From Bolinopsis microptera (taxonomy: Eukaryota > Ctenophora > Tentaculata > Lobata > Bolinopsidae): a stretch of DNA of 64,000 nucleotides. The stretch lies in assembly GCF_026151205.1 (NCBI RefSeq), contig NC_087072.1, positions 10,764,169 to 10,828,168 on the forward strand, written 5' to 3'. The stretch's first letter is position 1. Every line of letters begins with the position of its first letter. A model generated the notes under the pieces. It made no database searches, was not told the DNA's origin, and saw nothing but the letters and a program-made list of their open reading frames with translations. This document shows, piece after piece, positions 23,301 to 64,000 of this stretch. Position numbers and translations under genes: made by a program.

Positions 23301-26300
23301 TGACCTGACAGAAATACCCCCCAAAGTCACTCTCTTCCACATTTGTTATGACCAGTCTCCGACCATAGTCCTCGACACAAGTCTTCTCTCCACAGCCGGT
23401 GATACTGGAGGCTTGTTGGATAGAAGCTGCTTTAGCCCATGTGTATTCTGCTGGTGGGTACCTGGGGAAGGGATGTTTAAAACCAATGGATATCGTTTTA
23501 TAAGTTAAAGAGATATGATCCGACATTATAATTAATGAAATATTCGGTTGTATGATTCATTTTCGGAGACATACCCGTAAGCTCCGCAATAGAGTGTGGC
23601 GTCCTCTCCTAACTTGACCTTATCACCATAACTAGCATCCTCCAAAGCTACTGGTGAAGCACTGACTTGGTTCTGTGACCCTCTTATCTTGAAAGTAATC
23701 TGGGAGAGAACAAAGGTTCCTCCAACATCAGGGTCGTTCACTATTGCAATGCATTTATATACACCTGAGGATGGTTGAATGTTTTACCTTTTTAGGTATG
23801 ATTGTATTGCTCCAGACAAGTTTAAATTCTCGTTTCTAGGTGTGTTTATGAGACTTTTCTAAGTGAATCGAAAGAAGTTTTAATAGGCTTAGTTATGATC
23901 ACAAGAGACATTACTTCAGTAATAATACCTGCATGGTTCTCCTTCACGTTCAGAATGTAGAGATCCCCGAAGTTGCCTTGTCCAACTTTACTGTTCATGA
24001 AGACGTCAGCTTCACTGATGCTGTTCCCATCTTTAGTCCACTGTATCTGTGCAGGTGGATATGAAGCACTTGCCTTGTTACACTTCAGTATAGCTCGAGC
24101 TGAGGAACATGGATTAGTTCTTCTGAAGTTATCATGACGGGATACATTTCTTTGAACTCAAAATCATCATGATGGTTCTGCTCTTAAAGTGAAATAGTGA
24201 TAAATATCCCACCTTTGTTGGTGACGACACCATCCGAGGAGGTGACAGTGGAGTCGAAGCTGGTGTGTTTGACTAGGACCTCGCTGACTCTACTCAACAA
24301 AGAGTACCCGTCCTGGGACCTAGCTTTACATTGGTAGTAGCCAGCATCTGATACTTTGATATTCGATATTGAGATACTCGTTGAACCTTGGGAAGAGAGA
24401 GAGAGGAGTTGAGTGCTACGGATATTCTAAAGATGCAAATTATGACAAGCTTTAATATTATTTTGAAGTGGGTACCAGATATTTACAATTTTTTTGTCAG
24501 TTCTGAGCGGCAATTATTCGGTATTGTTGAGTCCGTGATATCTAAACCAAGATAAACGAACCTGCGAGATATAAGTTATCATCACTAGTCATGTCCCCGG
24601 AGGGGAGAGTGGACATCTTGTACCAGTAGTACTGGACCGGCTTCTCCGCACTTACGAAACACGACAGAGTCAAGGACCGTCCAGCTGTTATTACCTGGTT
24701 CTTCGGCTCCTGTGTTAAGAGAAACTGTGAAAAAATGTCCAGGTGTAAGCTGTAAGAATAATGAACTTCACCGCTGACATATTTATGATTAAGATCTAAT
24801 CCAATCATATAAACCTCCTTCTGCCATGGAGCTCACCGTAGAGAATTTAAAGTTCCTGAGCGCAGCAGGGCCAAGTTTAAACCAGTCAGGTTCCTCGCAA
24901 CTGTTAGCTGTAACACACACAGTCTCATGTTCCCGTTTCAGGACGGGTCTGTCCCGGGGACACACACATCTACTTATCGTCCTGCTCGGACACTCCTGAA
25001 AGAGGGGGTTTCAGACATGGGGCTTTTAAAGGGTTAGCATCTAGGCTAAATCAGTTACTGCTTGTACTGCTTCAGGATTTGTATGAGGTACGTAAATGAG
25101 GCAGGGATGGCAACTTGGTCGTTTAGCTCCGGACAGTCTATGCAACGTCTATGCAACGTCCATGCAACAACAAAAGAACCGTCTTTGCAACGTCTATGCA
25201 ACGTCTATGCAACGTCCCTGCACAATGAACACTCTATGCACACTCCCTGCACGGTCAGTCTATGCAACGTCTATGCAACGTCTATGCAACGTCTATGCAA
25301 CGTCCCTGCACAGTACCATATGAACACCGGCTACTAGCCGGCTACTAGCCGGCTAGTAGCCACTTTTGTAATAACAGCTCCTCAACTTCACATTAACAAC
25401 CGGCTACTAACCGGCACTTGAAAAGTGGTCACTACTAGCCGGCTAGTGACCACAAAGTGGCTACTAACCGGCTACTAAGCGGTCACTAGCCGGCTATTAG
25501 CCGAGCTCTAAAGCAGACCTACTAGTAGCCGGTTCCAAACCGGCTACTAGCCGGCACTTAGAAAGCGGTCACTAGCCGGCTACTAACCGGCTACTAACCG
25601 GCTAGTAACCACCAAGTGGCTACTAACCGGCTACTAACCGGTCACTAGCCGGCTCTTAAGCGGACCTACTAGCCGGCACTCGAAAAGCGGTCGCTAGCCG
25701 GCTACTAACCGGCTACTAACCGGCTAGTAACCTAACCGGCTACTAACCGGCTAGTAACCACCAAGTGGCTACTAACCGGTCACTAGCCGGCTCTAAAGCG
25801 GACCTTCTAGTTCCAAACCGGAACTAGAAGGTTAGTAGCCGGTTAATAGCCGGCTAGTGACCGCTTTCTAAGTGCCGGCTAGTAGCCGGTTTGGAACCGG
25901 CTACTAGTAGGTCTGCTTTAGAGCTCGGCTAATAGCCGGCTAGTGACCGGTTAGTAGCCGGTTAGTAGCCACTTGTTGGTTACTAGCCGGTTAGTAGCCG
26001 GTTAGTAGCCGGCGAGTGACCGCTTTTCAAGTGCCGGCTAGTAGGCGGTTTAGAACCGGCTACTAATAGGTCTGCTTTAGAGCCGGCTAGTGACCGGTTA
26101 GTGACCGCTTAGTAGCCGGTTAGTAGCCACTTTGTGGTCACTAGCCGGCTAGTAGCCGGTTAGTAGCCGGCTAGTGACCACTTTTCAAGTGCCGGTTAGT
26201 AGCCGGTTGTTAATGTGAAGTTGAGGAGCTGTTATTACAAAAGTGGCTACTAGCCGGCTAGTAGCCGGCTAGTAGCCGGTGTTCATATGGTACTGTGCAG

Positions 26301-35300: not shown

Positions 35301-38300
35301 TATTATTATTTCAAATAACTAAACACCACCAACAATGACAACATATGTGGTGAACAAAATCTTCCTAGTTAACAATAATCTCCATGGCTTGTTTATCTTG
35401 AGATAAAATAAGTAGTTTTGTAATGATAATTATTTTTAACTTGAAGAATCTGACATAAAATAAGAAACTTAAAACTTGAATGATATATCTGATTCAGTCG
35501 GAACATTTTTATCTGAGTCCCCAAGTGCTTGGTGTCCAAGTTAAGTATCCTCGTGCAATTACAAAATTTAATCAAGATAAAAAACCAATATTAAAAACAG
35601 CACGCGCGCGCAGTATATTCACAGCACAGATATACTTCACGTCAATAGATAAGATAAGATAAGAAATAGTGTAAGAGTTTGATACGTTAACCTAACTCCA
35701 CCGCCGGTGGTAGCCTCGCCTTGTTTGTCTTTAACAGCGTTTATCTCAGGACATGTGCTGCCCTCGGCGAGGACCCACTTTCCACTGGGGGCACACTCCA
35801 ATGTAATATACTCACTTCCACACTTCACACTTGCAGTATCGTACACTGAGATCTTACTGGTCAGCCTACGCTTGGTGTACTTATCAAATTTGATCTCCAG
35901 TTCTTGTTGGGTCTCCAAGTCTACGCACGAAGCGTTGTAATGCTTGCACACAAATGGTAGCTGCAGGTTAAAATCCCCACCAATCCAGTGTCCTGATTTG
36001 GCGGCGTCCATGAAGGCGTAATCTCGTTCAGCCTCCGAGTTATCTGGCTCGTTTTTCCACCAAAAACTGAACTTGTCAGACACCTCGCCAGACAGCCACC
36101 TCCAAACTCCCTCTGTTGTCTCGTCCGTCAGGCCTATCCAGGCTCTAGTCTCGTTCGTTGTGTCCTTGTTTGCCATCAAAATGTCAAACACAAGATCATT
36201 CTCCTTGTAGTTCAGAATGGTGGCAAGATGGGCGTCAGTTCGCCACTCCTGACACGTTCTGTCCGCCTCAGCGGCGTTCTTAGCATCGCTAAAGTACTGG
36301 TAATCCTTCACTGTGTTCGGATCGTAGGAATCTGTCGCAAATGCACTGTCGTTATCGTAACCTTCGTCCTCTACCCCTTGACTGGTGTACACAAACACAT
36401 CCGTAGTGGCTTGTTTGAAAGTTCTGGAATTATAAGCCAGACACTGGTACACACCATGGTCATCGTTAGTAGGGAAATCAAACACCAGCTTCTGGACGCT
36501 GATTCCGTTCTCCGAGGAGCTGAATATCCTGATCCTTTCTCCCTTGTCTGCGATACCTTGTGTGTTCTGGTACCAGCCCATGTAGGTCTCTGGGTTCTGG
36601 GATGTGTTCACTTCGCATGTCAGGGTAAAGCTGGTGTAGCGGTTGGGTAACACTTTCACGGGGTCTGAGATACTCTCAAAGTTAACTGCGTAGGAGCTGG
36701 GCTCTTTTGACATGGCTATTATCTTGGTGACGTGGTCGAAGGAGTTGGTAGCGACACATTGGTAGTCCCCAAAGTCACTGTCCTGCAGGTTGTATATCCT
36801 CAACCTTCTGCCTCCTTGGTCGACACACTTTGACTCGGTACACCCTGATATCTCAGGCTGCTCCTCCCCTATGGCTGCCACTTTGTACCACTTAATGTCA
36901 GGAGCAGGGAACCCGTACCCTGCACAGTACATCACTCCCTCTTCTCCCTTCTTTTTCTTTTCACCGAAGTTGGCAGTTTCTTTGACTTTAGGAGCTCCGC
37001 TGACGGTGTTTTGTGATCCCGTGATGATGACAGTCCTCTCCGCCAGGGTCACTGTTTTGTCAAGTTCTGAGGAGGCTCCCTTACAGGTGTACTTGCCAGC
37101 GTGATCAGCCTGGACGTTCTGGATGTACAGAGAACCGAAGTCTGGAGATTTCTCGTTCCTGTTCATGAAATAGTCGGCGTTCTCGAATTCAACCACTTTG
37201 TCTCCAAAGTACCACTTTATCTCCGGAGTTGGATCAGCGTAGATCTCCGCACATTTAATCTCAAATAAGGGGTTACTTAGTGTAACTCTATCATCAGTAA
37301 CGATGGTATCCTTAGTTGTAAAGTGTTTCACTCTGATCTCTCCTACTCCACTGATCATAAGAAAGTCAGAGGAAGCGACCGCTTTGCACTGATAGAAGCC
37401 TGCCTCCTCCGGGGTGATCTCCTTGAAAACCAGCTCGCTAGTTCCTGTCATGTAGAGGTTCTTCTCGGCCGTGCCGTCTCCTTGAGGCAGCTCATCCAGC
37501 TTGTACCAGATGTACTGGATAGTGTACTTGTTGGAGACTAGGCAGCTGATCGTTACTGAGTCCCCGGCTATCACCGTCAGATCCTCCGGTTCCTTGGTGA
37601 ACTTGAACTGGGCGGAGGGCTCATCCATGTACTTTTTTGTGGCCTGCCGACACTCTTTCGACAGAGGATCCACACAGACATCGCTGGTGTCCTCCAGTTT
37701 GATTTTATCTGCAGGGCACACACAGCGACCAATGGTCCTGGTCGGACAGAGTTCCTTGTCAGGGTAAAAGTGAGCCGTGCAGGTAGCGATGCAGATACTG
37801 GCCTTATCCTGCCATATCAAGTCACCTGTACAGGACTCGCCACTGACGTAATGGACAGAGATTAGGAGAACTGTGATCACTTCCAACGCTTTCATTTCCT
37901 GTGTGGGATAGAGGTTAATCAAACAAAAACTTCATTTTCGGGCATATACATAGTATAGAGTTAATCTAATAAATTTTAGGCGACACATGTAATGGATGTG
38001 AGAATTTCTATTTTTAGTCCAACTCTAATCTGGATATTAGAAATCGCTAAAGCAAGGAAGAAAAAAGATGGTTCACTCCAAAAGATCAGCTCCCTGGCAT
38101 GCATCTTATAAACTTTAAAGGCTGTTGACAACATTTTAGACCGATTAGCGCGGGAAATATAAATACGGGAAAATTGGACAAGCCAACAGGATAACCGACC
38201 ACTTGAGAACACATGAACTATATCATTCTTAAGAGTAACTCCTGGTAGGACACACATTCATCGGCACATTATCAAATCAGCGTGTTAAAACCCCTGCTAA

Positions 38301-56300: not shown

Positions 56301-58942
56301 GTTATAATAGATGTGGATACTGGCGGGGAGGTGATCATTGTTTGTTTACATTAATAGTGAGCACATGTTAAGCAGGCTGAGGAGGTGATCATTGTTTGTT
56401 TACATTTTAGGTGGAGCACATGTCAAGCAGGCTGAGAAGGTGATACATATTTTGTATTATAGAAGGTTTGTAACACTTGTAACGCCTTCTTGTTACCCTC
56501 CTTTGAGGGCCCCGAATTATTTTCTGAACGAAAGCTCAAAAATAACCGAGAAATCGACCTTCTTATTAACTCATTTTGATGACCGTTTCTAACCTAAAAT
56601 TATAGGGGCCCGTTCAGAAAAATCTCATATTGTACATGGGCAGTGGGCACGGTTACATTGTAATGATCACGGTTCACACAATTTCTAGTTCTGTATGACG
56701 TAATCATGGCGTGTGTACCGAGGTGCAGTCTGCAGATAAGAGCACCTTGAAATTGCCAACCTGTGGCAGAGATAACAATGTGAACAAAGGGTCAAATACA
56801 GATAAGAAAGGTAAACATACGATATAATGTCCCTCTGCTCACTCTTCCTGTTGTGATTGGACGGATCAGCGTCACGTGACAGAACACCTCTATTACAATT
56901 GGTCGGGATCACGGAGCACATCAGGGCTGCCCGTCGTCCGAATAAATATAATTCAGTTGTTATTATGATTGTTATATACCTTTATTGTGTTTCTTTTGAC
57001 TTTTGCTATATCGTGCTCTGCTCTGAAAATTGTGATAGAACCTGTTCGAGTTGTTAATGAGACAATCTCCTTGTTCTTTCGTTGCAGAATCAACATGTTC
57101 TTTGTTTGAGTAACACAACAATTTTGAGGAAAAAGGAAGCGTTATTGGGCTGTAAAACCAACTTAAATCGATTTCTCGTTGTACAGGTGAGGAACAGTCA
57201 CCAAAATGAGTTGCTTACCTGCTGTGTTTTGTCGTACTCTGCTCTTCGCTCAAGTTCGATCAGTTAAGGTGAGGATTGCCTCGATCTTTCGGTTTCAGCC
57301 CTAGGTCAAGAGCTGTAGAACCGAAGGATCAAAATATATGTTGCTTGTTGCTCGCATTCTAAACTATAAAACATCGATTTTGAGGGATAAGGAAGTGTTT
57401 ATAGGTTCTGAAACCTAGCTAAATCGATTTTTCGTGCAATTTTAGGTTAGAAACGGTCATCAAAATGAGTTAATAAGAAGGTTGATTTCTCGGTTATTTT
57501 TGAGCTTTCGTTCAGAAAATAATTCGGGGCCCTCAAAGGGGGGTAACAAGAAGGCGTTACAAGTGTTACAAACCTTCTATAATACAAAATATGTATCACC
57601 TTCTCAGCCTGCTTGACATGTGCTCCACCTAAAATGTAAACAAACAATGATCACCTCCTCAGCCTGCTTAACATGTGCTCACTATTAATTAACTGATGTT
57701 TATCATTCAATTCTCCGACTTACAATAATCAATGATACTGCTGATTAGAAACTCGATAATAGTAGAACAGTTAGACGCGCGATCACGTGGGCGCGTCACG
57801 TGCGTACCACGTGCCACCAATAGCATACGCCGAGTCCTATACCACGTGACACGAAAGCGCACCACGTGATATGAAACATCGTAACCGTCCACTTCTTTTA
57901 CACAGAATTCCTGGGAACGTTGCCAAAGCAGCTAATTCTTGGAATTTCTCCAACGCGTGGCGTGGAGAAGTTGGCGACTAGCCAGCTACCCTTGTCCGTG
58001 CCCTAAAAAATAGTATTGTTTTGCTTGCTCTCCTTCCAGCTCTTGTTCCTGCTAACGTTCAAGCTATTGCTCCACTATGACAGATCGGTTGACATTCAGA
58101 TTGATGAACTGCTTTCCAATCGTGTTCCGGACAGTACAGTTAGAGTCAACAACTGGGCTCTAAACAAGTAAACAAACAATGATCACCTCCCCGCCAGTAT
58201 CCACATCTATTAGGGCTATTAAAGTAAGGTTCTTGCCAGGTTTCGTGACCGGGGCTAAAACATCGTGAAATAAGAACTCGCGCAGTTATAGGCACGACAC
58301 ACAGACTACTAGGCTGAGACGGCTGAACCAAATGAAGACAGCTCTGAGCCGTTGGTTGCATGCAATAACAACCCTATGTCAATACCCAGTACCTCATTGA
58401 ATTGAACTAAGTAGCTATTTGCTGCCATGTCATGTTTCTTTGCCTACTTACTGGTGACTTTTATGGGAAAATTTTCGTAATGTACATTCGACGAGTGGTA
58501 TTAACCATCCAATCAAATTTCATTCACGTTGGATCAGCTATATTTAACTGCTAATGGTCAAGAGTAATTGGGTATTGAATGAAATTATAATGATACAGAT
58601 TTGAGATACCCAGCCCAATATCTTAAAGTTATCACCATGATCAATCGAATGTTTCCAGATGGCTCGCCAATGCCATGAGAATAGTAAGGGATATATATAT
58701 ATAGACTAATTGATATTTAATGAAAGTTAGCCAGAAAACCACTAAACTCCACAATCCCTCTGCCAGCTACCTGGATATGGCAGACTCAGACGGACAGACG
58801 CTGCTGCACCACGCGGTGAAGACGGCTGACGTGGAGATATTACAGTACCTGCTGGACCAGGGCGGTAATGTGAATCTGGTGGATAACGAGGGGTGTTCTC
58901 TTCTGCACCATCTGGCAGCTGGACCAAGGACTCCCAAACAAG
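20318..58942 (+). CDS. FYVE-like zinc-finger plus ankyrin-repeat protein; multi-exon, huge first intron, 3' end not seen
   Basis: Assembled exons: 20318-20454, 52830-52956, 54044-54141 and 58767-58942. All have GT-AG borders and the phases agree at every junction (AG|G, 0, TC|C). The first two exons together make a Cys cluster: C5xxC8, C15xC17, C20xxC23, then C45xxC48 x4 C53xxC56 and C62xxC65. The stretch FKKRKIFCRHCNLPLCGKC resembles the centre of a FYVE finger but lacks the phosphoinositide-binding His-His pair. Exon 3 is helical (NALDDMITAIKEQ). Exon 4 has ankyrin repeats: DGQTLLHHAVKTADVEILQY and GCSLLHHLAAG. No stop has been reached at 58942, so more exons must follow. The first intron would be about 32.4 kb and holds three other genes. 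I do not recognise a named orthologue. The zinc finger being completed exactly across the 32-kb gap is the main argument for linking the exons. Confidence 0.72.
20455..21517. other. Start of the giant intron, noncoding
   Basis: Begins with the donor GTATGT. AT-rich, with no additional exon or RNA gene recognised before the 3' end of Ig gene A. It includes the 3' untranslated region of that minus-strand gene. Confidence 0.5.
21518..26806 (-). CDS. Ig gene A: secreted/GPI-type protein with four Ig domains, C-type lectin and CCP, 12 exons
   Basis: Exons (minus): 26672-26806, 24837-24995, 24562-24724, 24213-24386, 23929-24099, 23575-23764, 23140-23461, 22713-23000, 22438-22567, 22130-22273, 21838-21972, 21518-21720. 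They sum to 2214 nt, exactly 737 residues plus stop. Order: signal peptide (MILRGTVLLLILSTVQC); Cys-rich segment ending CPSRTISRCVCP; Ig1 (LTLSCFVS ... AGYYQCKA); Ig2 (KCNKAS ... KENHAGVYKC); Ig3 (LYCGAYGY ... FGGYFCQV); Ig4 (FNLTCAVD ... GLYQCLAY); C-type lectin about 530-650 (AWIGLTD, KQDEPDN, FPYVCKYYNASC); CCP-like VSCKSGQT..LVCSPSGKW; hydrophobic C-terminus (SISLIFISYLLAVMR) fitting GPI attachment. Probably a surface recognition protein. It is a paralogue of the intronless gene at 35637. Intron 1 carries a fold-back element. Confidence 0.88.
25109..26486. mobile_element. Palindromic element built of 11-bp tandem repeats, 8-bp target duplication GCAGGGAT
   Basis: The ends are inverted (TTGGTCGTTTAGCTCCGGAC at left, its complement at 26463-26482, preceded and followed by imperfect GG.AA. 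tips) and are flanked directly by GCAGGGAT at 25101-25108 and 26487-26494. The outer arms are tandem copies of an 11-mer TCTATGCAACG; the inner arms are tandem copies of CCGGCTACTAA / CCGGCTACTAG, also 11 bp. The centre (about 25803-25833) is itself a palindrome (TTCTAGTTCC ... GGAACTAGAA). An 8-bp duplication suggests mobilisation by hAT machinery. It lies in intron 1 of Ig gene A. No reading frame is meaningful. Confidence 0.88.
26807..31287. other. Noncoding region between Ig gene A and the GPCR
   Basis: No coding exon recognised. It contains the upstream region of gene A (next to 26806) and of the GPCR, plus several CACGTG and CCAAT motifs (a dense group at 28953-29067, further CACGTG near 29414 and 30680). 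Open frames here are short and show no domain. Confidence 0.45.
28953..29067. promoter_or_regulatory. Cluster of three CACGTG E-boxes and three CCAAT boxes
   Basis: Within 115 bp: CCAAT at 28953, 28995 and 29037 (about 42 bp apart each), and CACGTG at 28978, 29020 and 29062 (also exactly 42 bp apart). The two motifs alternate with a constant offset of 25 bp. CACGTG is bound by bHLH-zipper factors such as USF, MAX/MYC and MITF/TFE; CCAAT by NF-Y. The regular spacing suggests a composite enhancer/promoter or a decayed 42-bp tandem repeat. No gene start is recognisable just beside it. Confidence 0.55.
31288..32403 (+). CDS. Divergent class A-like seven-transmembrane GPCR, intronless
   Basis: One frame of 371 residues with seven hydrophobic segments, roughly at residues 25-46, 54-75, 105-135, 150-171, 210-235, 268-295 and 308-330. 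N-glycosylation-type NES near the start fits an extracellular N-terminus. After the third segment the sequence reads LTLKIVNPFRM, a position equivalent to the DRY region (the following P-F/L-R is common in class A receptors) but lacking DRY itself. The last helix reads LPLIYAVLFPVILIYRK, a variant of NPxxY. The C-terminal tail has paired cysteines (PPCCIS) that could be palmitoylated. Ligand unknown; an orphan receptor probably specific to the lineage. It lies on the plus strand inside the proposed giant intron, between Ig genes A and B. Confidence 0.82.
   Translation: MNESYSSNLDDVSLVFKGGIFDLVPLNIPLSIMVLIQNIGILVNYYHDKAKFVPCIYMGIALADILKALGQMVVSVISVYVFRVYHDWDDDMSGSEDRLELLFKSLYCYMVIALPGISCSKLLNIMLTLTLTLKIVNPFRMICTDRLKKAALIICLVIVCLHVSETVCIAVYFSKWSTYNHVREYENMVFGYELPGLLTVLSLSCFSRECFPISKHVKNFLLYGVAVVLNMAIPPILVLTCMVIQVRYLKKNLPEDEPGFQGPPNTSRHVSITLFLISTLYFVCNFFFCIGWAIYSGVVGNWNSPNKHYDHEMQGILCGFGMSTLPLIYAVLFPVILIYRKPDLRARYVEYYRSLAPPCCISSYRSLPTQG
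32589..33356. mobile_element. MITE with TACCTTACTCGGGATTATTA termini
   Basis: The left end TACCTTACTCGGGATTATTA is inverted at the right end (TAATAATCCCGAGTAAGGTA). Just inside, GGGTTTATTAACGACCGGT appears in the same orientation at both ends (about 32614 and 33257), with GGTTCGGGAAAAATATGGCG following each. The element therefore has terminal inverted plus internal direct repeats of about 100 bp. No transposase. It begins about 185 bp downstream of the GPCR stop codon. Confidence 0.8.
33357..35636. other. Noncoding region between MITE and Ig gene B
   Basis: Nothing coding is supported. Open frames at 34564-34856 and 35393-35662 lack domain similarity. The stretch immediately right of 35500 includes the 3' untranslated region of Ig gene B. 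Confidence 0.45.
35637..37895 (-). CDS. Ig gene B: intronless paralogue of gene A (four Ig domains, C-type lectin, CCP, GPI tail)
   Basis: One frame of 752 residues from the ATG at 37895-37893 (MKALEVITVLLISVHYVSG, a signal peptide); the frame is open nine codons further up, but a likely acceptor CCCACACAG lies just before this ATG. Order as in gene A: Cys-rich segment (CPTRTIGRCVCP); Ig1 (VTISCLVS ... AGFYQCKA); Ig2 (SLYIQNVQADHAGKYTC); Ig3 (MYCAGYGFPAPDIKWYK ... FGDYQCVA); Ig4 (FTLTCEVN ... HGVYQCLAY); C-type lectin (AWIGLTDETTEGVWRWLSG, WKNEPDN, LPFVCKHYNASC); CCP-like (VKCGSEYITLECAPSGKW); hydrophobic tail (TLTLFLILSYLLT). None of gene A's 11 introns is present, so it probably derives from a spliced transcript or complete intron loss. 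The coding sequence looks richer in G+C than its surroundings. Probably a surface recognition protein. Confidence 0.9.
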   Translation of the reverse strand: MKALEVITVLLISVHYVSGESCTGDLIWQDKASICIATCTAHFYPDKELCPTRTIGRCVCPADKIKLEDTSDVCVDPLSKECRQATKKYMDEPSAQFKFTKEPEDLTVIAGDSVTISCLVSNKYTIQYIWYKLDELPQGDGTAEKNLYMTGTSELVFKEITPEEAGFYQCKAVASSDFLMISGVGEIRVKHFTTKDTIVTDDRVTLSNPLFEIKCAEIYADPTPEIKWYFGDKVVEFENADYFMNRNEKSPDFGSLYIQNVQADHAGKYTCKGASSELDKTVTLAERTVIITGSQNTVSGAPKVKETANFGEKKKKGEEGVMYCAGYGFPAPDIKWYKVAAIGEEQPEISGCTESKCVDQGGRRLRIYNLQDSDFGDYQCVATNSFDHVTKIIAMSKEPSSYAVNFESISDPVKVLPNRYTSFTLTCEVNTSQNPETYMGWYQNTQGIADKGERIRIFSSSENGISVQKLVFDFPTNDDHGVYQCLAYNSRTFKQATTDVFVYTSQGVEDEGYDNDSAFATDSYDPNTVKDYQYFSDAKNAAEADRTCQEWRTDAHLATILNYKENDLVFDILMANKDTTNETRAWIGLTDETTEGVWRWLSGEVSDKFSFWWKNEPDNSEAERDYAFMDAAKSGHWIGGDFNLQLPFVCKHYNASCVDLETQQELEIKFDKYTKRRLTSKISVYDTASVKCGSEYITLECAPSGKWVLAEGSTCPEINAVKDKQGEATTGGGVRLTYQTLTLFLILSYLLT
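39425..39512 (+). repeat. Four exact copies of a 22-bp unit
   Basis: GAAGGGAAATATGACGTTAC plus AA is repeated four times head to tail without a mismatch. Each unit contains TGACGT, the half-site of CREB/ATF factors. A 22-bp period is about two helical turns. Confidence 0.93.
41060..41190 (+). repeat. Degenerate 15-16-bp tandem repeat
   Basis: Variants of AAACTGGTAACTATC recur about six times with substitutions (AAACTGGTAACTACC, AAATTGGCAACTAC, AAACTGGAAACTATC). Noncoding. Confidence 0.75.
44691..44723. repeat. Perfect 33-bp palindrome
   Basis: CTGTGGATTGCGAAGA, one central base, then TCTTCGCAATCCACAG: a 16-bp perfect inverted repeat with a one-base centre. It can extrude as a tight cruciform or act as a dimeric protein site. 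No adjacent gene. Confidence 0.9.
44886..44951 (+). repeat. Three copies of a 22-bp unit
   Basis: TCTAAGCTAGACTCGATCAA plus GC is repeated three times; the third copy differs by one base. It has the same unit length as the unrelated 22-mer at 39425. Confidence 0.9.
45577..45672 (+). repeat. Two copies of a 48-bp unit
   Basis: The unit AACTTACCGACTCCATCGTC ... CCCATCTAGTG occurs twice in tandem and itself contains a duplicated TCTTCTCCCATC. The open frame over it (45507-45803) is repeat-derived. Confidence 0.85.
48520..48597 (+). repeat. Three exact copies of a 26-bp unit
   Basis: AAATTATGAAATATGAAGTG plus TGAAAC is repeated three times without mismatch. Noncoding. Confidence 0.9.
49093..51024. 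mobile_element. Element bounded by GGGGTCGTTCACATATTACG inverted termini with C-runs
   Basis: The left end GGGGTCGTTCACATATTACG (then TAATCA and a run of about 16 C) is inverted at the right end (a run of about 12 C, then TGATTACGTAATATGTGAACGACCCC). The arrangement is a roughly 26-bp terminal inverted repeat plus homopolymer on each side. Between them lies a Penelope-like element remnant. Either a DNA element was invaded by a Penelope-like element or the termini belong to a composite. No target duplication is clear. Confidence 0.72.
49178..50690 (+). pseudogene. Penelope-like retroelement, 5'-truncated, frameshifted, with GIY-YIG endonuclease
   Basis: Frames at 49178-49633 contain the reverse-transcriptase pieces IGIPTGGSPCVQIANIAVYS and RRYIDDGAGLFEGT (a YIDD catalytic motif typical of Penelope-like elements). 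49791-49979 continues with NHIYSGIVYSQCLRLRRI-type sequence in another frame. 49879-50478 holds the linker and a GIY-YIG nuclease: a Cys-rich CHMPRCKCC-like zinc knuckle, then IIYLFQCSFCGKAYVGRTTR and LRVRTGEHR. The final segment (EHKYIQQLKTLKPLGIN) continues to about 50690. Frameshifts separate the parts and the N-terminal reverse transcriptase is missing. Confidence 0.85.
51025..52829. other. Noncoding, end of the giant intron
   Basis: No recognised gene. Open frames at 51074-51431 and 51542-51742 show no domain. Ends in the acceptor CCCTTCCAG before the zinc-finger exon at 52830. Confidence 0.45.
52957..54043. other. Intron 2 of the zinc-finger/ankyrin gene
   Basis: Starts at donor GTTAGT and ends at acceptor TTTCAG. 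AT-rich. Overlapping small open frames at 53667-53985 look accidental. Confidence 0.5.
54142..56304. other. Intron 3 (left part) of the zinc-finger/ankyrin gene
   Basis: Begins GTAAGT. No exon recognised. The open frames on both strands around 54711-55188 show no domain and appear accidental. The region continues into the fold-back element at 56305. Confidence 0.45.
56305..58212. mobile_element. Nested fold-back element in intron 3
   Basis: The outer ends are a 45-bp inverted repeat (TAATAGATGTGGATACTGGC at 56305, its complement ending at 58212). An inner palindrome pairs about 56351-56605 with about 57430-57690, nearly exact: a 66-codon open frame in the left arm (56392-56592, plus) is repeated residue for residue in the right arm (57447-57647, minus). 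A short motif block (TGATCATTGTTTGTTTAC next to AGCAGGCTGAGRAGGTGAT) is itself duplicated in the left arm. The unpaired right-hand part (57690-58165) carries the CACGTG cluster. No transposase is visible. Confidence 0.8.
57784..57868. promoter_or_regulatory. Five CACGTG E-boxes in 85 bp
   Basis: CACGTG starts at 57784, 57797, 57808, 57843 and 57863, with a CCAAT at 57817. An additional GTCACGTGAC with flanking ATTGG motifs lies at 56856-56902. GTCACGTGAC-type sites are bound by MITF/TFE and USF family bHLH-zipper factors. The cluster lies inside a fold-back element, so it may have been carried in by the transposon. Function is inferred only from motif density. Confidence 0.55.
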
Positions 58943-59916
58943 GTGCGTGGATCTGCTAATTTGAGTTTGCAAGTGTTTTTAGCACTTGTGGAAGTTTGGA
59001 AATTATTTAATGACTAGTGTAACCCGGCCTACGGCCGGGATTTCACTGCCGCAGTTAAAAAGGGTAGGAGTAATTACCCGCTGAGTCAAAACCCGGATTA
59101 GGCGAGCAATTCTATTCGGAGTGCCCTCACGTATCCAATAGTATGCTTAAAAGATAGTAATTCTTAATCAATAATCAATAGAAATTAACCCTTAACACCA
59201 TGCACCACACCAGCCTATCATATTTGTGAACATGCATTACATTGTCGTATGAAAGTATGAACTCTCTCTACAGTCCAAACAGACCGTTTGAGCACTCCCT
59301 CCCCTAATAAGTTTATAGTATTATATGACCATGTAATATATACGCCATGTAATATATACGCTACATATGCAGAGAGAGAGAGAGAGCTAGCCCCGTAACT
59401 CTTGCCGTTCTTCTCAAGCCATTTTATGTAACATATTTTGTGGTACAAAACCATCAATTAAACCACTTACCACCGGCCGATTTTTATAAAATTTGCTTAT
59501 TGGCTTCGTCAGAGTTTTGTCGGCACTATACCGAAAAAACCAGTCCCGTAACTATTACCGTTTTTTTTGTATAACCGTTCGGAAATTACACACAGACACA
59601 CACACAGACACACACACAGACACACACACATTCTGGTGTTATTAAGTTGATTGATCTTGTGGGGTGGTTGTCAGTTTATTTATTGCCGATTGTGAGAATC
59701 CAGCTCAGAGGGCATGGGACAAAATTAAATCTTGCTTAGATTAACTCTGCAAAATCTTAACAACATAATCATCAACCGATAGTTTATATTACATCGAAAA
59801 CAGAAAAGGTTTAAACAATCTAAAAAGCCTCAAAAGACAAAAAAATTCAGGGAATCGTTAAGCAGTGTCCGTAAACATGCCATCATTAAAAAAAAAGTTT
59901 AATTAGTGACGCATTT
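58943..59916. other. Noncoding with a hairpin-tipped repeat and (CA)n
   Basis: Begins with donor GTGCGT of the ankyrin exon. AACCCGGCCTACGGCCGGG at about 59022-59042 is a GC-rich hairpin. A GA-rich run (about 59371-59386) and an ACACACAGACACACAC repeat (about 59588-59630) follow. Near 59395 and 59545 the CCCGTAACT motif recurs, suggesting one short interspersed repeat family. The 3' untranslated region of gene C lies near the right end. Confidence 0.5.
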
Positions 59917-62044
59917 TTAGATCATTAAAAGTCCAAGTAGAAGGGCTAAAATTGCAGATAAGGTCGAGTGTCCAGCTTTAGCTGTTTGAAAGCTTTTACC
60001 TGAACAAAGTGTCTTTGGATTAAGTGCAGGCTGAAATACACCCTTGGAACATGTCATAGTCTGGCTGATCTTCTTATTGTTTACACATATTGCTTCCAAC
60101 TCTTCTCCATCTGCAATGAAGTCCTCCTCGGGTGGTTCTAGGATGAACAGATCTGATTTGATCACAGTACACTCACCATTATTAACATCATACGGGGCAT
60201 TGCCATTTGAACCTGATGGAAAGAAGTTTAAAACTGGCAATTGAAAAAGGCATATCGTCAATCGTCATCAACGCATCTTCGTTTAAATTCTAATTGCATA
60301 ACTTCTAAAAAGTTATGCAATTTTTCCAAAAACTCTTAACTCAATCCGCTAAGAAACTAGGGAACTGATTACTGAAATGAGATTTTACTACCTCCGTTAC
60401 TACATAATGGAAGAGGCTGATCCCACTGTCCCCCAATACACTGTAACGTATCTGAACCCACTAGTGTTCCCTCTTTACATTTGACCGTTGCCTCTGTGCC
60501 TTCAGTCAAATCTGCTTTGCTAAATCTAACATTCCCGTTTTGGACTGCATTTTCTATGTTCCAACAGTTCACTGTATTTGGAAAGAAGGGTTATGGTTAT
60601 TCTGAAAAAAGCTGTGTAATAAGTTACACGATTCTACTTATTCTTCTTGACAAATTAATGAATAGATAAGGGGTCAATATACTTAAATAACTAATAAGGC
60701 GATAAAATGTTGGGTTGTTTTATACCTGCCCGGCTGCAGAGACCCCTTGCTTCAAACGTGAGAGAATTCTTGGTGACCCATTCACCAGAGTTCTCATCTA
60801 TCAACCCATAATGATTCCCTCTACCATGACTCGGTATGTTGATATAGTTAGCCGGCGTAAACCCGTCCAGCCACCTGTATGCTCCAGTTCTATCTTCATC
60901 TCTGTTGTAAATAATTGCAATTAATTTTTGAGATTTCTCATTGGTTTTGCGAACCGAGACATTACCTGAACAGGTCTTAAAAGGTAATCTTCAAATGAAC
61001 TTTTATAGTACCCCTTTTATAGAACTCATTCAACAAAAACAATCAAGCTTCAGTATATGTATGTAACTTACAATAACCCAATCCAAAAGAGCTTAAATTT
61101 GTCATCTGTCTTCTCCCCAGGATAATCATCTGCTAATTTATCCACTAACAGATTGTTATGATACTCTGTAGGGATGGTCGCCAAATCCCATCCACTTTTA
61201 TGTTTTGTATCCATCGCTTGGCAAGAATCTTTGCATTGTTGATAGGTCGTCGGGTGCCCCTCATTACAATATGCATACTTCAGATCTGGCAGAACAGAAA
61301 AGTTACGTTTCATTACCAAGATATTAAAGAGAAGTAAATAAAATGAACATCTTGAACACAAATATTATAGTCTTCATTGTTACCTCTTCTATAAGTAGCT
61401 AAAAGTGAGAAGGCGTTCTTGTAGAACCCACAGTTCAGGAGACTCTCGTCTCCACGAGCATAGTCAATATATCCATTGTCTCCAAAATCAGTTCCGTAGC
61501 TTTGGGATATTTTGTTTGATGAAGTTCAAAATATGATTGAGAACTGAAAATAAGTCTCAAAGAAAATGTTCTTTTTTTCACCAAATCAGAGGAGTAAAGG
61601 TGATGATTCCTAATAATGTTGATACACATGTGATCATGATCTTACCTTGCTTTGACACGAAGTGTTTTGTCAGTGTATCCTACTAGTAACATGGCGTGAG
61701 GCATTGGGTTAGTAGCACACTGTGTGTCTCTATACTCTCCTGCAAATGTGAAACGTAGCATGTTCTAGACTTAAACTATTCATGTTATCTTTGGGGTGTC
61801 TTCCGATGGTTCATACTTTAAAGTGTATGGATAACTGTGTATAAACCCAGGCAGTGTAACTAACCTCCAGAATAGGCGAAGAGGTCATTGCCTATCATAG
61901 TTCCAAACGCAACTGGAGATGTAGTTAATCCTTCCAACATTCCAACCTCACTTGATTGGAGTGGCACGAAATCCTGTATCCATATCTTTGTCATGGCGTT
62001 ATTTTTAAAGTTGACGATGTCTTCCAGTATTTTGCACGGCGTAT
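59917..62044 (-). CDS. Gene C: papain-like domain fused to C-type lectin, CCP and GPI-type tail (3' seven exons)
   Basis: Exons (minus): 61865-62044, 61646-61739, 61384-61499, 61072-61285, 60726-60901, 60392-60571, 59917-60212, all GT-AG except for their AAG acceptor at 61500, with phases agreeing throughout. The first three exons give the C-terminal half of a C1A cysteine protease: GNDLFAYSGGEYRDTQC (papain FxFYSGGVY), NPMPHAMLLVGY (catalytic His region), VKASYGTDFGDNGYIDYARG (papain VKNSWGTxWGExGY). The catalytic Asn position reads Ala. Next are a C-type lectin domain (WDLATIPTEYHN, FWIGLLDEDRTGAYRWLDG), a CCP module (NCWNIENAVQNGNV ... LQCIGGQW) and a second partial CCP-like segment, ending in STLSAILALLLGLLMI, a GPI-type tail. 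The propeptide and the exon with the catalytic Cys lie right of the window. The role is inferred: a surface-anchored lectin with a possibly inactive protease domain. Confidence 0.85.
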
Positions 62045-62139: not shown

Positions 62140-64000
62140 GACACCACGGCATCAACTTTGACATAAGACTTAACGCTAGAAAGAAAAAGTCTACCAAACG
62201 AAAAATCTATAGCTTCAAAAGGGCCAATTGGACTAATTTAAATAATGCACTGAATTCTGAAAACTGGGAACATCTACTTAGTGGTAAACCAGTCGAAGAG
62301 GCCTGGTCAGTTTTCAATACTATTTTCACTTCTCATTGTAATTCACATATTCCTAAGATATCTGTCTCCGATGAATTTCAACCCCCATGGTTTGACTCAG
62401 ATGTCTTTGATTTATGTAGAAAAAAGGAGCGACTACATGACGAATGGAAACAGTCTTCTAATCCAAAAAAATATTTAAAATTTTCCAAAGCTAGGAGGGA
62501 TTTTAAAAATCTCGTTGATGCAAAATTGGACGCAAACTTTGAAGATGATGATAACAGAAATCTCATTAACAAAAAGTTCTGGTCTTTTGTGAAATCTAAA
62601 TCAAACTCTAATCGCATTCCTGAAACAGACAGCTACAATGGTTGCCTACGGTCCGATCCGCAAGGACAGTGTGAGTTATTCAATAAATATTTTAACGAAC
62701 AGTTTACAGAGGGTAGTGATTATGATATAGATATCGACTTTTCCAGTGACCGTGATTTTCAGGTCAATTTCGACACTTGTAAAATCAAAGGTTTACTTGA
62801 AAATATTGATCCAAGTAAAGCGCAAGGGGCCGACAATATCCATGGAAGAATTTTAAAGTACTGTTCAGTGAGCCTGTCTAAGCCTCTTGCTATCCTTTTT
62901 GAAGCTTCTTATAAAACTGGATGTATTCCAGCAGATTGGAAAATGGCAAACGTTGTTCCAGTTCATAAAAAAGGCTCTAAAATTGAAGTTAACAACTATA
63001 GGCCAATTTCTCTGACAAGCATTATTATGAAAGTTTACGAAAAAGTAATCCGGGATGAATTGCTCAATCGATGTGAACATCTTATTGATCAACGTCAACA
63101 TGGTTTTATGAGTAGGAAATCATGTACAACTCAGCTAGTAAATTTCTGTGACAGCTTAGCCCTATCTCTCAATGACAATGTTCGCACTGACATAATATAC
63201 TTTGATTTCCAAAAAGCTTTTGATTCTGTCAACCACGACATAATTCTGTTGAAGCTCAAAGAACAATATAACATTGATGCATCTCTACTGAGATTCTTCA
63301 AGTGCTACCTTGAAAACAGATACCAAAGGGTTGTCATTGGAAATAAAATGTCTGCTCCCTGTCAGGTTAGATCAGGTGTCCCCCAGGGCTCAATTTTAGG
63401 GCCTACTTTATTTATACTTTTTCTTAATGACATTACAGAGGATTTGTCACCGGAAACAAATATAACCATGTATACTGATGATACAAAAATATGGCGTAGA
63501 ATCACGTCCCAGGATGACCATTGGCTGCTCCAGCGGGATATTAACAGTCTTCAAAATTGGGCTCATCATAATAAGATGGTGTTTCACCCTTCAAAAAGTC
63601 ACGTTCTTTCTATTACCCGAGCATATTCTATGAATCGTAGTGTTAATTTTGTGTACTCAATGAATGAAACGGCTATCGAATACACAGACATTGAAAAAGA
63701 TCTTGGAGTACATATCAATAGTAAGTTAGATTGGTCACATCACTGTGATATGATATACTCTAAGGCTAGTCAGAGGTTAGGCCTTCTAAAAAGAACATGT
63801 TACTTCACCAAGAACACTAAAAAACGTCGGGCCTTCTATCTATCTCAGGTTAGAAGTCATTTCGAACACTGCACAATTGTCTGGCGGCCTCATTCAGAAA
63901 CCTCGGTGGAGAAACTTGAATCGATACAAAAAAGAGGTATCAAGTGGATCCTTAATGATATTTACTTGAGCCTTAGGGACAAAAAAAGGTATTTCATAGC
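62140..64000 (+). mobile_element. CR1/Jockey-like LINE, reverse-transcriptase ORF open to the window edge
   Basis: From about 62163 the frame is open without a stop to 64000 (over 600 codons). A linker region (FDIRLNARKKK, PPWFDSDVFDLCRKKERLH) is followed by reverse-transcriptase blocks: AQGADNIHGRILKYC, NNYRPISLTSIIMKVYE, IIYFDFQKAFDSVNHD, VRSGVPQGSILGPTLFILFL, MYTDDTKIW, DLGVHINSKLDW, then the tail SHFEHCTIVWRP and LESIQKRGIKWIL. Order and motifs are those of CR1/Jockey-group non-LTR elements. The catalytic box reads YTDD rather than the usual YADD. The endonuclease domain is absent: the copy is 5'-truncated (its remnant HHGINFDIR follows a stop). It lies in or beyond an intron of gene C, on the opposite strand. 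Confidence 0.9.

Follow-up and report, generated by a model that had tools for sequence, protein, structure and literature searches.

A C1A cysteine protease domain joined to C-type lectin-like and CCP modules in a ctenophore gene family

Does one gene of the ctenophore Bolinopsis microptera join a papain-like (C1A) cysteine protease to a C-type lectin-like domain (CTLD), a sushi/CCP module and a hydrophobic tail, or do these parts belong to separate genes? To our knowledge, the animal proteases wired to recognition domains, as in complement and clotting, are mostly serine proteases. A C1A domain with a CTLD and a CCP in an early-branching animal would, if true, represent the same wiring from another protease class. 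The window analysed here is a stretch of 64,000 nucleotides (C1:10764169-10828168) within the 264.65-Mb assembly of the organism's own genome. Its ctenophore origin is reflected in an ionotropic glutamate receptor (iGluR) ORF, which matched ML032222a of Mnemiopsis leidyi at 9.7e-121, as against 3.7e-71 for the next other receptor; another iGluR gave kainate, AMPA and delta receptors, with ML032222a absent among the 60 of 234 matches listed. Judged from sequence, C1A-CTLD-CCP is a real domain order shared by a family of ctenophore genes, and within the scope of our searches it has not been described.

A sequence-only reading of the window had claimed that splice phases join the C1A part to the CTLD, the CCP and the tail. 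Indeed, seven exons were found in that place on the minus strand, running from 62044 to 59917, with GT-AG borders and a single frame kept up to the stop codon. They give a partial product of 418 residues. Four further 5′ exons lie 5-6 kb upstream, past the window edge, and were located through spliced alignment guided by an intronless paralog, C3a. This alignment returned identical borders for window exons A-E and an identical start for exon F. The full model has 11 exons and encodes a pre-pro-protein of 627 aa in which the Cys25 site is intact; its start Met is the inner one of two in-frame Mets. Each of the 10 introns has GT-AG borders, and no stop interrupts the 627 codons. The features of the locus are the following, in window coordinates that are extended past the window end for the 5′ exons.

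68318-68188, 68068-67975, 67754-67539 and 67318-67132 (C1:10832486-10831300), minus strand: the four 5′ exons
62142-64000, plus strand: LINE-type reverse-transcriptase ORF within the 5.1-kb intron 4, continuing at least 651 bases beyond the window end (by eye)
61865-62044, minus strand: exon 5, middle part of the C1A protease, residues 210-270 of 627 (acceptor ...CCGCAG, donor GTTAGT; Peptidase_C1 match)
61646-61739, minus strand: exon 6, C1A protease including the catalytic His159 (PHAMLLVGY)
61384-61499, minus strand: exon 7, end of the C1A domain (VKASYG, Ala at Asn175), with a Ser codon split over exons 6 and 7
61072-61285, minus strand: exon 8, first half of the CTLD, phase-1 intron in front (by phase and CTLD profiles)
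60726-60901, minus strand: exon 9, second half of the CTLD
60392-60571, minus strand: exon 10, CCP/sushi module of 180 bases, both ends phase 1 (Pfam Sushi)
59917-60212, minus strand: exon 11, CCP-like four-cysteine module, GPI-type hydrophobic C-terminus and stop codon (59917-59919)
59675-59684, minus strand: candidate poly(A) signals, two overlapping AATAAA, about 235 bases past the stop (by eye)

The order in the 627-aa model is a hydrophobic signal (MLAVLLLLLYLPSTSA), propeptide, RKRRRSKR, protease, CTLD, CCP, CCP-like module and hydrophobic tail. Rfam gave no match to the 64-kb window at gathering scores.

The proposed domain architecture and order were borne out by the gene model, Pfam and family profiles. 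On the spliced product, Peptidase_C1 and Sushi scored above the Pfam cut-offs, whereas Lectin_C scored below. The 627-aa model matched PF00112 Peptidase_C1 at 5.3e-33 (115.4 bits, cut-off 20.7) over positions 1-217 of the 220 of the profile, and the 418-residue product matched its second half (positions 111-217, 2.2e-10). A profile of eight family members matched cathepsin K at 1.4e-30. Exon 10 reached 21.9 bits against Sushi in the full model and 22.7 bits in the 418-residue product (cut-off 20.7), and seven of eight members matched Sushi at E up to 1. The four-cysteine module of the last exon is CCP-like, without a Pfam match. Against Lectin_C, the window product scored 18.7 bits (full model) and 19.5 bits (418-residue product), below the cut-off of 22.6, and when full-length members were scanned, four of eight matched at E up to 1. 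Among isolated paralog CTLDs, that of C1b passed the same cut-off (29.3 bits) and those of C5 (17.5), C2 (20.7) and C3a (16.5) fell below. At E up to 0.1, a profile of seven family CTLDs matched 17 distinct solved sequences, and we take 16 of these to be CTLD proteins. It matched mannose-receptor-type CTLDs, the best match being Lymphocyte antigen 75 at 7.2e-11 summed over its repeated domains (best single stretch 1.8); single-domain proteins matched at 0.0026 or weaker (Reg4 0.0026, CEL-I 0.019). Four CTLD cysteines (346, 357, 361 and 466) are invariant in the eight aligned members. On these profiles, the family qualifies as CTLD-bearing, while the window domain by itself would not.

The own-genome search with the window product returned 170 candidates, of which 100 were scored; ordinary cathepsins were matched too. 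Eight further loci, among the matches scored, matched both the protease and the CTLD parts. At seven of these eight, the search also matched the CCP, and in C3b the CCP is present in the gene model. The nine loci lie on six chromosomes: the window gene, its tandem neighbour C1b and C1c on C1, C3a and C3b on C3, and one locus each (C2, C5, C10 and C11) on the chromosomes of those names. Introns are at shared places in all but C3a. One additional intron lies within the CTLD in C1c, C11, C2 and C3b, as compared with the window gene, C1b, C5 and C10, and a midpoint-rooted tree of protease, CTLD and CCP splits the family in the same way. In the protease tree, the nine loci stand apart from five other C1 genes of the genome with 100/100 support, one of the five being on a long branch. 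Two other C1 proteases (on C6 and C1) have short cysteine-containing C-terminal extensions after Pro-rich linkers, as seen by eye.

Three alignments were used: A1 with eight of the nine loci (without C11, which is near-identical to C1c; C1c, C2 and C3b trimmed behind the CCP), A2 with seven (without C10 and C11) and A3 with eight (without C11). The models of C5, C10, C1c, C11, C2 and C3b are partial at their ends. In the C10 model there is a very small spurious exon, and the frame is broken in the second CTLD exon (C10:16514921-16515110); the C11 model runs into RT-like sequence at its 3′ end. The second CTLD exon of C10 sits behind a 10-kb intron containing short repeats. Over protease, CTLD and CCP, dN/dS was 0.14 (window gene and C1b), 0.12 (C3a and C3b) and 0.17 (C5 and C10), values that are approximate since dS was 1.3-2.8, and 0.30 for the recent pair C1c and C11 (dS 0.06). 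Eight pairs were tried, four of them without finite dS. Mean pairwise identity was 0.59 for the protease, 0.47 for the CTLD, 0.48 for the first CCP and 0.38 for signal plus propeptide (35 pairs, without C1c/C11). Protease, CTLD and CCP all appear to be held by selection.

The sequence-only reading had allowed for two separate genes, one ending after the protease exons and the other starting at the lectin exons. The paralog C3a speaks against this. It is intronless and reads from a Met through protease, CTLD and CCP in one open frame of 552 codons, and it groups with the intron-bearing C3b at 100/99 support in the tree of the three domains. In the comparison with the window product, C3a covers residues 4-317 of the latter, CCP included, with 49% identity (8.1e-98). 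At E up to 0.01, Pfam named the protease alone in C3a; its CTLD and CCP were identified by likeness to paralogs. Being intronless next to a sister with introns, in a family with common introns, C3a is a retrocopy and so descends from a spliced mRNA, although no clear poly(A) tract follows it. Protease, CTLD and CCP were thus together in a single mRNA, in the C3 line at least. As this retrogene shows, the question of exon chaining can be settled by an intronless paralog without RNA data. Many papain-family and glutamate-receptor matches across the genome lie in long frames that are stop-free over most of the profile (e.g. C7:5192681, C5:3947919, C9:7533364 and C12:11794502), as if retrogenes were common in B. 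microptera.

That a protease gene and an adjacent CTLD-CCP gene were misread as one has, in our judgement, next to no chance of being right. The genome search was carried out exon by exon and the model is known here from genomic sequence alone, which would leave room for such a misreading. However, the 552-codon ORF of C3a spans all three parts, the same exon order recurs at seven more loci (in C10 with a frame break), and a splice donor closes the last protease exon in frame with the CTLD exon. Chance chaining of exons was rejected as well: the CTLD and CCP of C3a scored 445 against window positions 59400-61400 on the minus strand and at most 71 against controls. Over the 58 control pieces (29 windows on two strands) the median was 34, and the reversed protein scored 42; the best control score, 71, came from the piece starting at 36001, which overlaps another CTLD gene of the window. 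It is also very improbable that the window copy, within a real family, is itself a pseudogene in decay. Such decay would fit the LINE inside the 5.1-kb intron and the damage at other loci (the frame break of C10), but ten of ten introns are GT-AG, 627 codons are open, and dN/dS against C1b is 0.14, though at a high dS of 1.6.

For the N-terminal side of the gene, the sequence-only reading had placed the propeptide and catalytic-Cys exons to the right of the window. The four 5′ exons and the Cys25 site were found there. The 627-aa model gave no match to the Pfam I29 inhibitor propeptide. A propeptide profile, whose query includes the start of the mature domain, gave weak matches to pro-forms (best Blo t 1 at 4e-4; 5ef4 at 0.005). 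A Lys-Arg pair is present at the border between propeptide and mature protease in all eight rows of A3 and in the ninth locus, C11 (RSKRDYG). These pairs form one column in A3, and not one column in the longer alignment A1. We infer cleavage by a convertase at this site.

In the protease domain (papain numbering assigned from motifs), Gln19, Cys25, Trp26 and His159 are kept in nine of nine loci, with the motifs QASCGSCW and PHAMLLVGY in the window gene. Asn175 is replaced in eight of the nine, by Ala in six (including the window gene) and by Gly in two, and Trp177 is Tyr in all nine, so that the NSW motif reads ASY in the window gene. C2 alone has Asn175 and thus keeps a complete Cys-His-Asn triad, which makes the replacement comparable, within the family, with a paralog that keeps Asn. 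With three states at this position on the tree, a single or a repeated loss of Asn175 depends on the tree root, which is not fixed. Asn175 has been called important but non-essential, and its replacement not uncommon (PMC8244254, in the part available). The replacement would be expected to cut activity; as Asn175 is described as non-essential, it weakens a claim of full activity, not membership in the C1A family. In the eight aligned members, no more than 62 of about 215 protease positions are invariant, and in a dead domain Cys25 should have been free to drift. The four invariant catalytic positions therefore speak for a kept cleft, without proving turnover. For this domain the label "protease" is uncertain, given the replaced Asn175 and in spite of the retained Cys25 and His159.

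The window gene and C1b have hydrophobic C-terminal stretches without a cytoplasmic tail; in the window product, both ends are hydrophobic and the last 15 residues have a mean hydropathy of 2.6. The GPI-type tail read earlier fits the usual pattern in the window gene, whereas it was seen in just two of the nine loci. Four of the other seven end otherwise (the models of C1c, C11 and C3b are without defined ends): C5 has a basic tail, C10 ends just behind the CCP and C3a has a Lys-rich tail, all by eye, and C2 continues into at least six further CCPs (Sushi 1e-35, six stretches in one long frame). The predicted anchoring is a feature of the tandem pair of window gene and C1b, not extended to the family, and the window gene product is probably on the cell surface.

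The altered active site leads to an alternative that we consider somewhat unlikely, namely that the protein is a pseudoprotease receptor, a catalytically dead C1A scaffold as in TINAG or SERA5 in which the CTLD and CCPs do the work. The replacement of Asn175 in eight of nine loci and of Trp177 by Tyr in all nine would suit this, as would the parallels themselves: TINAG proteins are classed as inactive papain-like proteins (PMC10318531) and SERA5 is reported to act non-enzymatically (PMC4671257, PMC5500368), each according to the passages available. Yet SERA5 has Ser at the Cys position (PMC4671257, same passages), whereas Cys25, His159, Gln19 and Trp26 are retained at all nine loci here; the whole triad is present in the paralog C2, and the Lys-Arg site for propeptide removal is conserved. 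Quite unlikely, though compatible with the other readings, is a true calcium-dependent lectin by which the protease would be directed to glycans of microbes or prey. The domain is a CTLD by profile, and CTLD genes form a large immune-type set in Mnemiopsis (PMC11797021, passages available). However, EPN, QPD, WND and the second (long-loop) cysteine pair are absent from the window CTLD by eye (for the roles of the motifs, see the portion available of PMC12355970). Sugar binding by the classic route is therefore unlikely, and the earlier description of a sugar-binding domain is not supported. The likelihoods that we give to these alternatives overlap.

The reading that we prefer, and hold to be somewhat more likely than not, is that of a secreted, surface-tethered, convertase-matured C1A enzyme aimed by its CTLD and CCP, in a nine-locus ctenophore family. 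It starts from what is observed: gene structure, domain order, family, conserved residues and the signs of purifying selection. The family order is signal peptide, degenerate propeptide, Lys-Arg site, C1A, CTLD and CCP, followed by a tail that varies (GPI-type in the window gene; at other loci a basic tail, further CCPs or a plain C-terminus). Convertase cleavage, GPI anchoring, residual activity and targeting are the inferred parts. A proprotein convertase would open the zymogen at the Lys-Arg site in the secretory pathway. The mature C1A domain, with Gln19, Cys25, Trp26 and His159 kept, may then cleave slowly or selectively, or at least bind peptide, while the CTLD and CCPs, as protein- or glycan-binding modules, would hold it against a cell-surface target.

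With the C1A cathepsins (K, S and L; papain), the window protein shares the fold by profile, Cys25-His159, Gln19, GCxGG and an N-terminal propeptide; it differs in the replaced Asn175, ASY for NSW, the dibasic border between propeptide and mature domain, and the CTLD and CCP behind the protease. Factor C of horseshoe crabs has its catalytic domain at the C-terminal end. It is a serine protease with EGF and LCCL domains, whereas the window protein has an N-terminal cysteine-protease domain and a GPI-type tail, and no trypsin family was among the Pfam matches of the window product that would indicate a Factor C-type C-terminal S1 protease. What the two share is a protease, a CTLD and CCPs in one chain (PMC10090249, in part). 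It is possible, though on balance unlikely, that the family is the cysteine-class counterpart of such recognition-coupled proteases: a convertase-matured surface C1A enzyme directed by CTLD and CCP, at nine loci with changing anchors, with Asn replaced in eight and Cys-His held.

TINAG and TINAGL1 differ from the window protein in being without CTLD, CCP and GPI tail. These proteins have other added domains and have lost the nucleophile, and the lectin of the fungal Marasmius oreades agglutinin (MOA) is a beta-trefoil. Shared with TINAG and TINAGL1 is an animal C1-like domain with an altered active site and extra domains, which is inactive in their case (PMC10318531, passages available). MOA shares a papain-like protease and a lectin in one chain, and Glu replaces its triad Asn, yet it is active; it differs in being fungal and without CTLD or CCP, and its papain-like domain is called convergent (all from the part available of PMC8244254). 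In a classification of papain-like proteases, "lectin" occurs twice, one passage describing two families with a beta-trefoil lectin-like domain (PMC10318531). "Papain" is absent from the main text of a chimerolectin review (PMC12355970), and a term search of PMC11184263 gave no match. No C1A-CTLD-CCP protein was among the matches listed in the open-licence literature, as far as titles and abstract starts go; the earlier statement that no animal protein of this order had been described is not contradicted among those matches.

How could such an architecture arise? Exon shuffling usually leaves its mark in symmetrical 1-1 modules. In the window gene, three introns are in phase 1, namely those in front of the CTLD, the first CCP and the last exon, and the CTLD (exons 8 and 9, 390 bases) and the first CCP (180 bases) are therefore symmetrical 1-1 modules. 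The architecture probably arose by exon shuffling of such modules onto the end of a C1A gene. Searches with protease-peptide queries revealed no viral or prokaryotic chimera among the relatives listed (21 from viral contigs; 80 of 424 from genome contigs); the matched query ranges lay in the propeptide and protease part or slightly past it, ending at residue 376 at the furthest, where the CTLD spans about 340-470.

The window contains a second CTLD gene, an intronless ORF of 764 aa at 35637-37931 on the minus strand, in which Pfam recognises four Ig stretches and a CTLD (7.2e-13). By eye it also has a signal peptide, a GPI-type tail and a CCP-like cysteine module, the last without a Sushi match at E up to 0.01. 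In a profile comparison, the CTLD of the protease gene matched that of the Ig gene with an E-value of 3.5e-6 and a probability of 87.6. The Ig gene shares the CTLD-tail plan, and therefore this end is used with more than one N-terminal part. Ctenophore CTLD immune-type receptors are likewise close to the protease gene: in Mnemiopsis leidyi, CTLDs are reported with CCP, EGF or Ig partners, and the Ig gene with its CCP-like module and GPI-type tail lies in the same window; a C1 peptidase is not among the partners in the figure-legend passages on Mnemiopsis (PMC11797021, in part). Elsewhere in the window, an ORF resembling an ankyrin-repeat exon lies just downstream of the protease gene on the opposite strand (58714-58959, plus strand; by eye), and a tandem array is present at 25833-26208 (period 158, 2.4 copies, 90% matches).
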